From Singulisphaera sp. GP187 (GTDB lineage Bacteria; Planctomycetota; Phycisphaerae; Phycisphaerales; SM1A02), in contig CAMBXO010000003.1 in NCBI GenBank assembly GCA_945871915.1, positions 1 through 64,000 on the forward strand: a stretch of DNA of 64,000 nucleotides. Reading direction: 5' to 3'. The translations under genes and the position numbers were made by a program. Below the pieces are notes generated by a model, which saw only the letters and a program-made list of their open reading frames with translations, searched no databases and was not told where the DNA came from. The first letter of the stretch is position 1. The number at the start of each line of letters is the position of its first letter. Shown here piece after piece: positions 4,230 through 9,712 of the stretch.

Positions 4230-7200
4230 ATGATTCGATTGATTCTTTCAAGTGTTCTTGCACTCCTGAACATTGGCCTTCTTCTTGGAGCTGGTCCAAC
4301 CGCACCCAAGGCGCCGAAGGGCTCAAACACCGCGATTTCGGGCGTTGTGAAACCCGGGAACAAAGCCGGCGTGGTCAAACCGAAAGCTTCGCTTCCAATC
4401 GTTGGGGACGCTGACGACGCAGGGGCAAACAACTTGGTGCTGCCGAGCCTGCCTCGCCTTGTGGACATCGATCCCAACGCGCCCATCGAACCTCGCCAGC
4501 CGCATGTCAAGCGAGCCATCACTGGCCCAAATTCAATCATGGCGTCCATTTCGCCAAATGTTCAGCGAACCGGTCGCGTGATCTTTAAGTTCCGCGACGA
4601 ACTGAAGGGTCGCACCGGTATGAAGTCAGGCCGGGAACTTTTCCGCCAGACCGCGGTTGGTATCGAGCCGCTTGCAGCCCGAATGGCGCTTGGCGATCGG
4701 CTCTCCAAGGGTGAACTTGAAATGGTGAACGATCTCACCGAAGTTCAATTGGTGCTCACCAATTTCAACGCAACAGTCAAGCAATTGGTGCAGATTCCAC
4801 CCGCTGAACTCGCCGCCATGGAGACCAAGGCTGAGTTGATTGGTCGCCGCAAGCAGGCCGACCTTGCTGGAATCTTGGCCGCAACACCCGCGAAGGGTCA
4901 GTCGTCCGAAGTGCTTGCTGAGGCTCTGAATAATTTGCCCGGCGTTGAGTACGCGATGATCGAAGTGATTCCGGAACCAACGCAAGACGCACAGTGCCAA
5001 CGAGATGTTGCGCTCCAAAGTGGAATTGCATCGGCCGGCAACGACTTAGTGAACGGGCTTGGTTGCTCGTCCTTTACGAATGCTGCAGGCGCCACCATGG
5101 ACTGCTTTTCTCCGCCGCCCATCTTTTTGCGTCCAGACAATACCCCGCTTGCGGCGCCGGCTGGTGTGATTCCTTGCCACGCCCCAAATCGTTGGGCTGG
5201 CTTTCAAAACGGGGTTGCAACGGCGTCAGGTTGCTCAACTGCGGCGCCTACCTATACACCACTCCCCAGTCCGTCTGTTGGCCTTGGAGCACCATTGACT
5301 TGGGACTGCACTCCCAATTGCAATTACGGTGGTGGCGGTGGTGGACAATGCATTGACCCTCCAACAAGCCAAGGTTGGCAATCAGTTCCAAACTGCCAAT
5401 ATGGTTGCCAAGACCGCACGTGTGCCGCGTTTGTTGAATCTCTTGGATTCACTCAGTGCACCACTGAGACGGATTTACGGGGTTGGGATGCCTTGTGCGC
5501 GACCATTGCCAACATTTACTGCGGTGGCCTGTACTCATCGAACGCAACCCCCTACAACTCGGAGGTTGCCACTGGTTTAGGAAGTGGGGTTGGAGGAACT
5601 GGCTTTATCCCTGACATGATGTCAGCCGTTTGTTGGCATACAAACTCAATCTCAGCGAATGCGGGCACAGCACTTGCCTATGGCTTTGGCTCAATCGCAC
5701 TCTCCACTGGAGATGTTTCGAGCTACGACCCTTGCTTTGTCATGCGTGGTCCCGCGCAACCGCCGGAGATTGATTCGGCTTTAGGGCTTGGAAGCTTTGT
5801 CACCAATGGCGTATTGGTTTACACCGATGTCGGCAACGGCACTGGAATTTCCCCTTGGGGTTTTGACGCCCCAGGCTCACAGATCGGCACGCCGACCGTG
5901 TACCCGATCAACAACGCTGGCGCAGCCCCCGCAACGTATCCGGCACTCGCGCCTGGCAGTGTGGCCTTTGTGAACGCCTATACCGTTCCATACGCTCTTT
6001 TCACCACGCCATTACCGATCAGCGCCACATTCCCTACCACGGCACCAGGCGTTACTTGCAACTTTACGGGTGCAGGTGCAGTTGGCGGAATCTGGATGTG
6101 GAACACGAACACCATGCTTTTAAGGAATGCGCAGTATGCCGTGTTCAATCAGTCACTCAAGGGGTTTCCATTCGCATTCTCGCATGACTGCCTCTCAGTG
6201 GACGATGTGGTGCCTGGTTGTTATCAAAGCGGATGTTGCGCCTATGTCTGCATTGCCGATCCGAGTTGTTGCATGGTGGGTTGGGATGCAAGTTGCGTCA
6301 GCGCGGCGAATTCCGAAATCGATAATCCAGCCGGCGCGCCAATCGACCCCGATACCAACCCAGAAACATTGCCTAGCCCTAATGCCTCCAGATTCAGCCT
6401 GTGTGGTGGGCAATCGCTCAGTACGACTTCCTTTCCAACGGCAATTGCATCTCCAACACCGCCCTTTGAAGCAACAGAACCAACCAACTTCCGGGTTCGG
6501 GGAATGCAGATCTGGAACTACGGAAGTCCTGTCGTCGCGAGTTGCAGTGAATACACCACCATTGTGAACGCAGAGTCGCCGCCACCGGGTCCAGGGCAGG
6601 TTCAGTTGTCAACTTTGACACCAGTCGGGGGAGCCAACCCGATTGATGAAACCATGGCATTCGTCAACACCGGATTTGGTGGGGGCGGAATTCCAGTAGA
6701 GGGAATGATCGAATTCATTACGGAATCTTTTCCATCGGTGAATCCGAATGTTCTTCGCGGAGCTGGGCGCACCATTGGCGTGATCGACAATTCTGCATTT
6801 ATTGATCATGAGTCAATCGTGGGAAGGGTCGCTGTTGAGCCGGGGCAGACCATCGTTGTTACGCCGCTTGGTTCGGACACTCAAATCGATCCTGATCACG
6901 GCACAGCAATCTTGAGCATTCTGATTGGGCAGCCGGTGGTCAACTCAGACTCGAGCATTGGCGGGATTTCGGGACTTGTGACACAAGCCGATACTCTGTT
7001 TCTTCCAGCCATAAGTGTTGAAGAGGGTGGCCGCATTGCGACCGCCATCGCACGCGCCGGTCAATTACTGATCTCGGGAGATGTTTTGTGCATTCCCTTG
7101 GGTCTAACAGGGAATTACAGTTCCAACAGTGCCGTCTGTTTAACGGCGATTCCATATATTTCTGATCAACTCAGCATCGTTCAAGGATTAGGGATTACCA

Positions 7201-8492
7201 CTGTCGTCTCAGCTGGCAACGGAGGATTTCAATCCACACTGACCAGCGGCGGAACCGACACGTTTTCTGTTGTCGTGGGAAGTTGTTGGCCAGGCAATCA
7301 GATTGCACTTCCAATTGGAGCGGCAGGATCACTCGCTTGCTCGCCACCAAACTATCCCGGTATTTCGTACTGCCGTTACCGAACAAGCAACTGGACTTCG
7401 TCCCAAGGCCCGGCCTTCGGTGGTTCATCACCTGGCATCGATGTGGCGGGATGGGGTACAGGCATGTGCACAGCCGGTGTTGGCACACTTTGGAGAGGCG
7501 ATAATGTTGCAAGCACTTCTTCGGATTACTCCAATCCGGCTCTGACGACCAATCGCCTCCGCACCTATCAGTCCTCGTTTAGTGGCACCAGCGCCGCCGC
7601 CGCCATGATCACTGGTCTGGTTTGCGCGATGCAAGGCACTGCAGAGAGCATTCTTGGAAGCGAAGTGAGTCCAAGCAGAATTCGCAACATCTTGGCCAAT
7701 AAAGAAAACCTCGATGGAACAACGGTGGTGCTCGACACCGTCACATTGCAATGCGGCGGAAATCCGGGTACGGCGTTACCCACGACCGTCAATGACAATG
7801 CGATCACGGTGAACAACGGCGATTTGGCCCCTTCGGGCGCTGGTTCCATTCACCAAGTTGGTGGATTTCCAATTGCGACTCGCTGCCTTGAAGAAGTTCT
7901 TGACACACAGTTCTATGAAGGTGGAATTCCGTTCACCACAACCGTCATTCGAGGCTTGGTGCGGGCCGGTAATTCGTTTAGCGCCGCGGTGTACGACAAT
8001 GGATTCCTACAGATTTCAGGAGCAACCACGTCTCGCGGGTCGACCGGTGCCGGGTACGGCGCACCGTTCCCGTACATGTTCAGTGGCCGCTGCGTGGATG
8101 TGCAGATACGGGCGACAACGCAGTTCACTGACCCTGATGATTTCACAGACATGGGGATCACGCTGTATGGAAAATCCAACAACGCCACAGCGACATCCGG
8201 CTCGGTGGGCAATCCGCTGGTGATGATCTACGCGTTTAACAATCAATCTCGCCGATGGGTTTATCTTGATGCAGACTTCCTGACCTCCATTAACCCAACA
8301 CTCGGTTCATCTTCGCTTGTTGGAACTCTTGGCGCGACTGGATATAGCCCGATGAATTTCTTGATCACTGAAGGCACCGAACAAGTCATGTATTTCAGAG
8401 TGATTACCTATGGCTTTGGCGTGAAGGGCAATTTCCAGGCGTGGTGGGATTGGTTTGACATCAATCCAAATGTCCTGAGTGGTCCCGGCTGA
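4230..8492 (+). CDS. Giant secreted S8 subtilisin-like serine protease
   Basis: A 1,420-residue exported protease. Residues 1-22 form a signal peptide (IRLILSSVLALLNIGLLLGA). Residues about 95-255 resemble a subtilase prodomain ending in LPGVEYAMIEV. A Cys-rich region (about 265-700) follows, with two related blocks: one near 390-431 containing WDALC, and one near 667-698 with CCAYVCIADPSCC and WDASC. The catalytic domain (about 845-1190) has the full triad: Asp853 in IGVIDNS, His890 in DHGTA, Ser1121 in SGTSAAAA, plus oxyanion Asn997 in VSAGNGG. A beta-rich C-terminal domain of about 230 residues ends the protein. It is monocistronic, with no visible Shine-Dalgarno sequence. It probably degrades extracellular or surface protein; the substrate is unknown. 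No PEP-CTERM tail is present. Confidence 0.88.
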   Translation: MIRLILSSVLALLNIGLLLGAGPTAPKAPKGSNTAISGVVKPGNKAGVVKPKASLPIVGDADDAGANNLVLPSLPRLVDIDPNAPIEPRQPHVKRAITGPNSIMASISPNVQRTGRVIFKFRDELKGRTGMKSGRELFRQTAVGIEPLAARMALGDRLSKGELEMVNDLTEVQLVLTNFNATVKQLVQIPPAELAAMETKAELIGRRKQADLAGILAATPAKGQSSEVLAEALNNLPGVEYAMIEVIPEPTQDAQCQRDVALQSGIASAGNDLVNGLGCSSFTNAAGATMDCFSPPPIFLRPDNTPLAAPAGVIPCHAPNRWAGFQNGVATASGCSTAAPTYTPLPSPSVGLGAPLTWDCTPNCNYGGGGGGQCIDPPTSQGWQSVPNCQYGCQDRTCAAFVESLGFTQCTTETDLRGWDALCATIANIYCGGLYSSNATPYNSEVATGLGSGVGGTGFIPDMMSAVCWHTNSISANAGTALAYGFGSIALSTGDVSSYDPCFVMRGPAQPPEIDSALGLGSFVTNGVLVYTDVGNGTGISPWGFDAPGSQIGTPTVYPINNAGAAPATYPALAPGSVAFVNAYTVPYALFTTPLPISATFPTTAPGVTCNFTGAGAVGGIWMWNTNTMLLRNAQYAVFNQSLKGFPFAFSHDCLSVDDVVPGCYQSGCCAYVCIADPSCCMVGWDASCVSAANSEIDNPAGAPIDPDTNPETLPSPNASRFSLCGGQSLSTTSFPTAIASPTPPFEATEPTNFRVRGMQIWNYGSPVVASCSEYTTIVNAESPPPGPGQVQLSTLTPVGGANPIDETMAFVNTGFGGGGIPVEGMIEFITESFPSVNPNVLRGAGRTIGVIDNSAFIDHESIVGRVAVEPGQTIVVTPLGSDTQIDPDHGTAILSILIGQPVVNSDSSIGGISGLVTQADTLFLPAISVEEGGRIATAIARAGQLLISGDVLCIPLGLTGNYSSNSAVCLTAIPYISDQLSIVQGLGITTVVSAGNGGFQSTLTSGGTDTFSVVVGSCWPGNQIALPIGAAGSLACSPPNYPGISYCRYRTSNWTSSQGPAFGGSSPGIDVAGWGTGMCTAGVGTLWRGDNVASTSSDYSNPALTTNRLRTYQSSFSGTSAAAAMITGLVCAMQGTAESILGSEVSPSRIRNILANKENLDGTTVVLDTVTLQCGGNPGTALPTTVNDNAITVNNGDLAPSGAGSIHQVGGFPIATRCLEEVLDTQFYEGGIPFTTTVIRGLVRAGNSFSAAVYDNGFLQISGATTSRGSTGAGYGAPFPYMFSGRCVDVQIRATTQFTDPDDFTDMGITLYGKSNNATATSGSVGNPLVMIYAFNNQSRRWVYLDADFLTSINPTLGSSSLVGTLGATGYSPMNFLITEGTEQVMYFRVITYGFGVKGNFQAWWDWFDINPNVLSGPG

Positions 8493-8566
8493 TTCAAAAA
8501 TCGCAACCGACGCGGGCTGGACTTGACACTCTCAACTTGGTGCTCTCAAGGATGACGCAACGACAA

Positions 8567-8777
8567 GGCGACTCGAAGCGATCCACGCGCTGCGAGCCTT
8601 ATCTGGTGTTGAGAGGAGAGGAGAGGACAGGGCGGGATTCGCTGCCGTAGGCCGTAGCCGCCAGTGGGCGAAGCCCACTCTGCGGTGGCTCTTGGCCACC
8701 GCAGCTGGACTCGATGCTCAGCACATGGCGACGCGAAGCGAGCCATGTGATGAGAGGAGAGGACAGGGCGGGATTCG
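8567..8777. repeat. Degenerate duplication of the tRNA-Ser 3' end and flank
   Basis: The 26-nt block 8616-8641 is repeated exactly at 8752-8777. It covers the last 17 nt of tRNA-Ser(GCU) plus 9 nt of its 3' flank. A second, imperfect pair (8567-8584 and 8727-8744, 16 of 18 identical) lies on the flank side of each copy, so the whole unit was probably duplicated and then diverged. Between the copies are three hairpins: 8663-8679 (7-bp stem, GAA loop), 8681-8703 (9-bp stem) and 8722-8749 (8-bp outer stem). No ORF fits in the interval. Confidence 0.8.
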
Positions 8778-8849
8778 AACCCGCGATACGCGTTTTGCGC
8801 GTATACCGGTTTAGCAAACCAGCGCCTTCGGCCACTCGGCCACCTGTCC
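8761..8849 (-). tRNA. tRNA-Ser(GCU), anticodon GCT
   Basis: Read on the minus strand, the acceptor arms GGACAGG and CCTGTCC pair fully. The anticodon stem CTGGT/ACCGG encloses loop TTGCTAA with anticodon GCT (codons AGC/AGU). A long variable arm with stem TACGCG/CGCGTA marks a class II tRNA, and the T arm GCGGGTTCGAATCCCGC is canonical. CCA is not encoded. The base after the acceptor stem is T (U73) instead of the G73 usual for bacterial tRNA-Ser. Confidence 0.97.
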
Positions 8850-8980: not shown

Positions 8981-9712
8981 ATGATGGCCCCCATTCTCCT
9001 TGCACTCTCTGACGCCGGCGTCACCACGCCCCAGGGATGGGTGGGATGGATTGTGCAGGAATTTCCGCGGCTCTTCACACAACTTGATGGCTTTCTGCTT
9101 GATGTGGTGACCATGGTCGGAGGATGGACCTATCTCGTGCTCTTTGGCATTGTCTTTTGCGAAACTGGTTTGGTGGTTACACCATTCTTGCCCGGTGATT
9201 CGCTTCTCTTTGCGGCCGGCGCCCTGTGTGCCTTACCGCAGAGCCCCTTGAGAGTGGAATGGATGGCACCCCTGCTTGTTTCGGCCGCCCTTCTCGGCGA
9301 TAACGTGAATTACTTTTCGGGTCGTTTCATTGGCCCGCGAGCCTTTACCGGTCGCATTCGATTTCTTAATCCAAAGCATCTGGACAAGACCCATGCCTTC
9401 TTTGAAAAGCATGGTGGCAAGTCCATTGTGCTGGCTCGATTCATTCCGATCATTCGAACGTTCGCGCCATTCGTGGCTGGTATCGCCACCATGCGCTACC
9501 GCACCTTTCTCGCCTTCAGTCTGGCTGGCGCACTGCTGTGGGTCGGTTCCTTCATTACGGCCGGATGGGCATTCGGAAATCTTCCGTGGGTCAAATCCAA
9601 TTTCAGTCAAGTCATTTTGGGAATTGTCGTGGTGAGCGTTATGCCTATCGCATGGGAATTGTGGAAGCACCGCTTCGCCGAAAAGAACGCAGGACCCAGC
9701 AATGTCCACTGA
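8981..9712 (+). CDS. DedA/SNARE-associated family membrane protein
   Basis: A 243-residue inner-membrane protein of the DedA superfamily. Some members act as lipid flippases or support membrane-potential homeostasis; the substrate cannot be set from sequence. Visible hallmarks are the re-entrant segment FLPGDSLLFAAG (about 68-79) with its preceding ETGLVVTP, and the second conserved stretch ARFIPIIRTFAPFVAG (about 150-165) with its arginines, flanked by hydrophobic spans at about 40-60, 100-115, 170-190 and 205-225. Tandem ATGs at 8981 and 8984 both fit. It overlaps the TerC gene by 11 bp, so the two are probably translated from one message. Confidence 0.9.
   Translation: MMAPILLALSDAGVTTPQGWVGWIVQEFPRLFTQLDGFLLDVVTMVGGWTYLVLFGIVFCETGLVVTPFLPGDSLLFAAGALCALPQSPLRVEWMAPLLVSAALLGDNVNYFSGRFIGPRAFTGRIRFLNPKHLDKTHAFFEKHGGKSIVLARFIPIIRTFAPFVAGIATMRYRTFLAFSLAGALLWVGSFITAGWAFGNLPWVKSNFSQVILGIVVVSVMPIAWELWKHRFAEKNAGPSNVH

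Follow-up and report, generated by a model that had tools for sequence, protein, structure and literature searches.

The closest described counterparts of the locus reported here are the tRNA-linked repeats (TLRs) of Escherichia coli. According to the parts of PMC8144298 drawn on here, there are 22 of these repeats at ten loci, and every one repeats 18–19 bp of the 3′ end of the upstream tRNA or rRNA. They were first described in 1978 and, by the same account, were without known function before the work on three rRNA-linked members (PMC8144298). A named example is the 178-bp repeat at tyrT, RttR (PMC8144298; the tyrT repeat is also treated in PMC4986893), and the repeat spacing at rrnB is 150 bp (PMC8144298). 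The rRNA-linked TLRs are reported there as small RNAs: rrA, rrB and rrF belong to E. coli rRNA operons, where they occupy the interval that separates the dual terminators, and the rRNA-linked element is kept between genera, gives rise to transcripts and in vitro binds both Hfq and CsrA (PMC8144298). It is the suggestion of those authors that RNase E recognizes the repeat like the original 3′ end (PMC8144298). The passages of the same source used here also describe 3′ETS-leuZ as a sponge RNA from a tRNA trailer and mention no tail repeat for it (PMC8144298).

The locus compared with these systems lies in a 64-kb stretch of DNA, referred to as the window, on a 224-kb contig of a genome comprising 2.24 Mb in 20 contigs; the style of its proteins gives an impression of Planctomycetota. 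Another contig of this genome (C17 of G000) has inverted copies of one sequence at its two ends (L179 and L180), with two tRNA-Glu genes and identity over at least 775 nt; this long terminal inverted repeat is perhaps an assembly feature. The gene for tRNA-Ser(GCU) is on the minus strand at 8760–8849 in the tRNA call (8759–8849 by ARAGORN). It is convergent with a subtilase (Peptidase_S8) gene on the plus strand (4230–8492), and its divergent neighbor on the plus strand (8981–9712) encodes a VTT-domain (DedA-like) membrane protein; of 275 loci matching the latter protein, 80 were retained, at 47–59% identity. By the open reading frame list, an intergenic block at 8493–8758 separates the peptidase and tRNA genes, and it occupies the whole gap from the end of the subtilase gene at 8492 up to the tRNA. 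The initial annotation gave this block no coding capacity; the mechanically compiled list has short open reading frames that overlap it. Its description there as a tiny, non-coding element adjoining the 3′ end of a tRNA is fair. Base 73, the discriminator of the tRNA, is T in the window (8760) and at nine other loci of the genus (L006–L014) and G in L004 (genome G012) and L005 (genome G006); G73 is the discriminator of E. coli serine tRNAs.

A 26-nt exact direct repeat is present on the minus strand at 8752–8777 (copy 1) and 8616–8641 (copy 2), 136 nt apart. Copy 1 consists of the last 17 nt of the tRNA (8761–8777), starting from T-loop base C56, and 9 nt, TCTCCTCTC (8752–8760), that comprise base 73 and 8 nt of trailer. 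Copy 2 repeats this tail and trailer exactly and is followed by one more CTCTC; the flanks of the two copies differ. The recurrence of the tRNA end with its 9-nt flank, which had been noted from the first reading of the sequence, was borne out: a 25-nt pattern taken from the repeat matches only the two copies in the window when up to 3 mismatches are allowed (shuffle mean 0.00 in 100 shuffles). A looser match that the same reading had placed beside each copy was also found, with 8728–8743 and 8568–8583 lying 160 nt apart and differing at 2 of 16 positions. Its sequence is somewhat over-represented in the window, occurring at 6 places with up to 3 mismatches as compared with a shuffle mean of 1.48 (0 of 100 shuffles reach 6), and the pair alone is therefore modest evidence. 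The sequences 3′ of copy 1 and copy 2 (units 1 and 2) are alike (local score 20; among 2000 dinucleotide shuffles, 2 scored at least as high). The repeat arrangement is real and is not a product of chance.

The initial annotation described three perfect-stem hairpins between the copies. Two of them are indeed perfect: hairpin 2 (8680–8704), with a 10-bp stem and a loop of 5, and hairpin 3 (8663–8679), with a 7-bp stem and a loop of 3, neither being assigned to a strand. The third, hairpin 1 (8722–8749, minus strand), CACATGGC...GCCATGTG, has an 8-bp stem around an interrupted inner stem, CGC-TTC-GCG. The GC-rich sequence GGCGGCTACGGCCTACGGCAG (8642–8662, minus strand) is immediately 5′ of copy 2, and the region of the looser match contains a degenerate hairpin, GATAAGGC...GCCTTGTC (8562–8603, minus strand), with a stability no greater than that of shuffled sequences. 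When 8493–8758 was shuffled 1000 times with its dinucleotides preserved, at least two perfect hairpins appeared in 5 of the shuffles, and under a looser rule (stem of at least 6, loop of at most 12) at least three hairpins appeared in 24. The predicted fold of 8500–8765 has z = −3.0, and none of 200 shuffles was equally stable. Whether hairpin 3 is predicted depends on the stretch that is folded; it either forms or yields to a longer stem in which copy 2 takes part. Because the copy-2 stem replaces hairpin 3 in some of these predicted folds, the block could possibly act as a switch between two structures. Within the window, the 14 nt at 8700–8713, TCGAGTCCAGCTG, past hairpin 1, resemble the tRNA-Asn tail of G006, and the tRNA-Asn tail of the window's own genome is a poorer match.

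None of hairpins 1–3 is followed by the T run of an intrinsic (Rho-independent) terminator. The single terminator-like site, at 8519–8504, is weak, and this one site compares with 0.6 in shuffles. The tRNA and peptidase genes are convergent, so that the block might be a coincidental pile-up of the ordinary terminators of both genes, with the tail copy as a neutral leftover. The lack of conservation of the block in relatives would fit such an origin, and so would the arrangement 3′ of tRNA-Ala(CGC) in the same genome (L091, G000:C7), where there are two near-identical, strong tandem hairpins with CTTCGG loops, apparently a duplicated terminator. By itself, however, a pile-up explains neither why 26 nt of tRNA tail and trailer recur exactly nor the second case in G006 described below, and we consider it unlikely.

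The hairpin block is single-copy in its own genome. The search of the genome and its relatives that the initial annotation had proposed found this one copy and none in 15 other genomes of the genus, several of which are incomplete. Among the many places with weak matches to the block, 20 were fetched; these have just short stretches in common with it, and in 18 of the 20 the frame is open throughout. The best of them is 24 nt at 96% identity in G012 (E = 5.6e-4, calculated for one genome). A multi-copy family of interspersed hairpins, like REP or BIME, was rejected in view of the single copy, the lack of a copy in the 15 relatives and the short matches at the 20 places.

For the comparison of the locus itself, also proposed initially, 29 tRNA-Ser(GCU) loci from relatives were used, 27 with at least 150 nt of downstream sequence, and no tail repeat longer than 10 nt was found at any of the 29. 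Eleven of them (L004–L014) are from the genus; for the remaining four of its 15 relatives the fetched set contained no corresponding locus. These represent the same neighborhood because a TerC gene recurs nearby in 11/11 and an S8-like gene in 9/11. The block was not seen at any of the 11, of which the G012 locus is visible for 56 nt only; in G014 less than 40 nt separates the tRNA from the S8-like gene, and there is no block. Thus the block is not the ordinary conserved intergenic sequence that, on the initial view, would have made a mobile origin unlikely: the search of the relatives did not turn it up. In a scan of 400 sampled genomes of the order, two occurrences of one tRNA-Ser tail form separated by a gap of 90–150 nt were matched in one genome, that of the window. 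The gap in the window is 121 nt, and a 60–120 nt version of the pattern (0/400) therefore misses the window's copy. An element conserved in the order was rejected, only the window's genome being matched among the 400.

The relative that best matches the locus is G012, in which one hairpin lies 3′ of the tRNA before the contig ends, 56 nt past the GTCC of the tRNA; any further copy beyond this point is out of view. The core CGCTTCGCG is common to this hairpin and hairpin 1 and is offset by 20 nt from the GTCC of the tRNA in both, and GTCCAG at 56 nt closes the G012 stretch as it does unit 1. Because its core lies 20 nt past the GTCC, as in G012, hairpin 1 is probably the ancestral terminator of tRNA-Ser(GCU). 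The degenerate hairpin at 8562–8603 is possibly a diverged copy of hairpin 1. The score of the single terminator-like hairpin region of G012 against unit 1 was reached by 10 of 2000 shuffles and that against unit 2 by 20 of 2000. The G006 terminator has no similarity to unit 1 or unit 2 (its scores were attained in 1456 and 1496 of 2000 shuffles, respectively). The likeness of the two units to each other, together with that of G012 to both, is most simply read as a local duplication that took in the tail, the trailer and the terminator hairpin. We regard it as probable that a lineage-specific duplication of the 3′ end of tRNA-Ser(GCU) formed a TLR-like trailer here.

A similar structure was found in a scan of the tails of 166 tRNA genes (45 in the window's genome, 29 at the serine loci of relatives and 92 in G006 and G014), 162 of which have at least 150 nt of downstream sequence. 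The scan recovered three E. coli controls: tyrT with a repeat of 20 nt, tyrV with 29 nt and rrnB with 18 nt. Tail repeats of at least 15 nt outside another tRNA occur at 2 of the 166, namely tRNA-Ser(GCU) of the window and tRNA-Asn(GUU) of G006, and the next longest is 12 nt. Within the window's genome, a repeat of at least 11 nt is present at 1 of 45 tRNAs (44 with at least 150 nt downstream). The G006 case (L224, G006:C8:132073–132145 and downstream; locus positions 1556–1865) is a 104-nt exact duplication, 206 nt downstream, that spans the tRNA tail, trailer and terminator and begins, as in the window, at T-loop base C56. Its unit encloses several strong predicted hairpins (z = −6.3). Beyond its own duplicate, only brief and weak matches turned up, none better than E = 1.9e-4, and they are spread over 18 of 61 genomes with G006 itself counted. 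The long duplication is absent at tRNA-Asn of the window's genome, G014, G009 and G005, and no tRNA-Asn was found in the G012 loci.

Shorter pieces of a tRNA's own tail, at least 9 nt long, anchored in the T-loop and within ~300 nt, are present at 9 of 133 tRNAs in the window's genome, G006 and G014, a count that includes the two long cases and uses a criterion set after some cases had been seen. Those tRNAs with no TTCRA tail or with too little downstream sequence had been dropped before counting. The controls gave 0/133 for the reverse complement, 2/132 upstream and an expectation of ~0.74 from other tails. One more piece lies at 300–450 nt in G014, and 30 tRNAs from the loci of relatives yielded 3 tail matches of 9–10 nt, 150–900 nt away and two of them at one tRNA. 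When the criterion was fixed beforehand and applied to G012, G009 and G005, 0 of 99 tRNAs had a piece within 300 nt (0.30 expected), and one match was found beyond that distance. Therefore only the two long cases are claimed, and a genus-wide system of tail fragments was dropped as a candidate. In G006, tRNA-Val (L220) and tRNA-Gly (L204) have 9–12 nt pieces of their own tails, from the T-loop, 120–145 nt downstream and directly following GC-rich hairpins; none such is found within 300 nt in three other genomes.

The presence of a similar structure in another assembly, that of G006, also bears on whether the repeat is a contig misassembly. The genome is in 20 contigs and may be derived from a metagenome. 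However, the block is ~8.6 kb inside its 224-kb contig and the two copies have different flanks, and we consider misassembly highly improbable.

The initial annotation had suggested a scar at the tRNA 3′ end, the usual target of integrases. The attL and attR sites of tRNA-targeting elements form direct repeats of the tRNA 3′ end from the T-loop, and an integrase site usually has identity that extends from the T-loop to the last base of the tRNA and onward into flanking sequence. The repeat in the window resembles such pairs in that it is direct, begins in the T-loop and spans the tRNA 3′ end and flank, and the start base C56 is found in the G006 tRNA-Asn case as well; copy 1 would then be attL and copy 2 attR of an integrative element with cargo deleted to ~110 nt. 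It differs from them in that the copies are 136 nt apart, with no phage-type integrase found, no cargo and no second copy. The genome has two PF00589 matches, full-length open reading frames of 332 and 349 amino acids, for which the best models are XerC (309 bits, cut-off 335) and XerD (315 bits, cut-off 330), both somewhat under the equivalog cut-offs; the protein that best fits XerD scores above the threshold for PRK00283, a subfamily of XerC/D type. No phage-type integrase is among these matches, the search having covered the PF00589 recombinases. The block has no match at E ≤ 0.1 in phage and plasmid records, a 22-nt tail-plus-trailer pattern has no exact match in viral contigs, and neither integrative-element cargo nor further copies were found in the genome itself, relatives, phages, plasmids or viral contigs. 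It is also unlikely that short hairpin arrays alone (units of 136 and 206 nt) would be left in two species, and the similarity goes on past both copies, something not expected of a simple attL/attR pair. Because the PF00589 recombinases are only XerC/XerD-like, the block matches no phage or plasmid record, its tail-plus-trailer pattern has no exact match in viral contigs and it is single-copy, the suggested scar finds no support and is quite unlikely; a mobile origin of the block is unsupported.

In favor of local duplication are the exact repeat, the likeness of the units, the absence of the block in the relatives examined, its single copy and the independent case in G006. Against duplication of a whole unit, it is odd that 26 nt are identical yet the rest has diverged to the edge of detection. 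Also counting against it are the contig end in G012, the G006 terminator that is unlike either unit, the lack of a U run past the hairpins, the degenerate hairpin of unit 2 that is no better than shuffles, the absence of a match to the TLR family and the 0/99 result for shorter pieces. What the sequences show is the repeat, the predicted hairpins, the convergent setting, the lack of the block in the relatives examined and the second case; the duplication event is inferred, as are the transcription, termination and processing of the block. The duplication would have copied the tRNA tail from C56, the trailer and probably the terminator hairpin, leaving a hairpin-rich trailer of ~130 nt that closes with a second tRNA tail, and the units would have diverged since then outside the 26 nt. 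Polymerase running out of tRNA-Ser(GCU) would transcribe the block as the trailer of the tRNA, from which 3′ processing would trim mature tRNA-Ser(GCU). Despite the lack of a U run, the stacked hairpins could contribute to stopping transcription in the gap where the tRNA and peptidase genes converge. The second tail, in turn, may offer another site of processing, from which a short RNA with structure would be freed. The likeliest role of the block would be that of a multi-hairpin trailer/terminator.

If the duplication is neutral and nothing else, the block is a minor local curiosity. A more speculative and rather doubtful proposal is that TLR-like tail duplications with hairpin arrays arise repeatedly far from E. 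coli, at different tRNAs and with the same T-loop breakpoint. Were this true, it would hint at a dedicated process that makes new structured RNAs from tRNA trailers, with a recombinase that targets T-loops, or else a mechanism that copies tRNA precursors, as candidates. Two independent cases in another genus, with relatives that do not have them, would make the origin of such repeats accessible to comparison with respect to breakpoint, direction and decay.

The block shares with the E. coli TLRs the exact recurrence of the last 17–19 nt of the tRNA 100–200 nt downstream in the same orientation, with structured sequence between, and as in the tyrV TLR its copy extends into the trailer. The exact repeat of 26 nt is within the 18–29 nt of the E. 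coli controls, and the unit of 136 nt, on the same strand and placed as a TLR would be, is slightly shorter than the ~150–180 nt of TLRs. In contrast to the E. coli repeats, the identity begins at C56 rather than A58, one locus among 45 tRNAs is involved rather than ten loci, and the Rfam family RtT is not among the matches of the block at E ≤ 10; the block is therefore called TLR-like in arrangement, with no claim of common descent or of being the first such repeat reported outside Enterobacteria. The 3′ETS-leuZ RNA is comparable in being part of a tRNA trailer with a potential role as an RNA, although the trailer in the window has a tail repeat and none is mentioned for 3′ETS-leuZ. With rrA, rrB and rrF the block shares a repeat of a stable-RNA 3′ end (150 bp downstream in that case, with 18 nt recovered) that encloses terminator hairpins, but unlike them it is not conserved. 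Overall, the arrangement of the block fits the TLRs of E. coli better than it fits an integrase scar.
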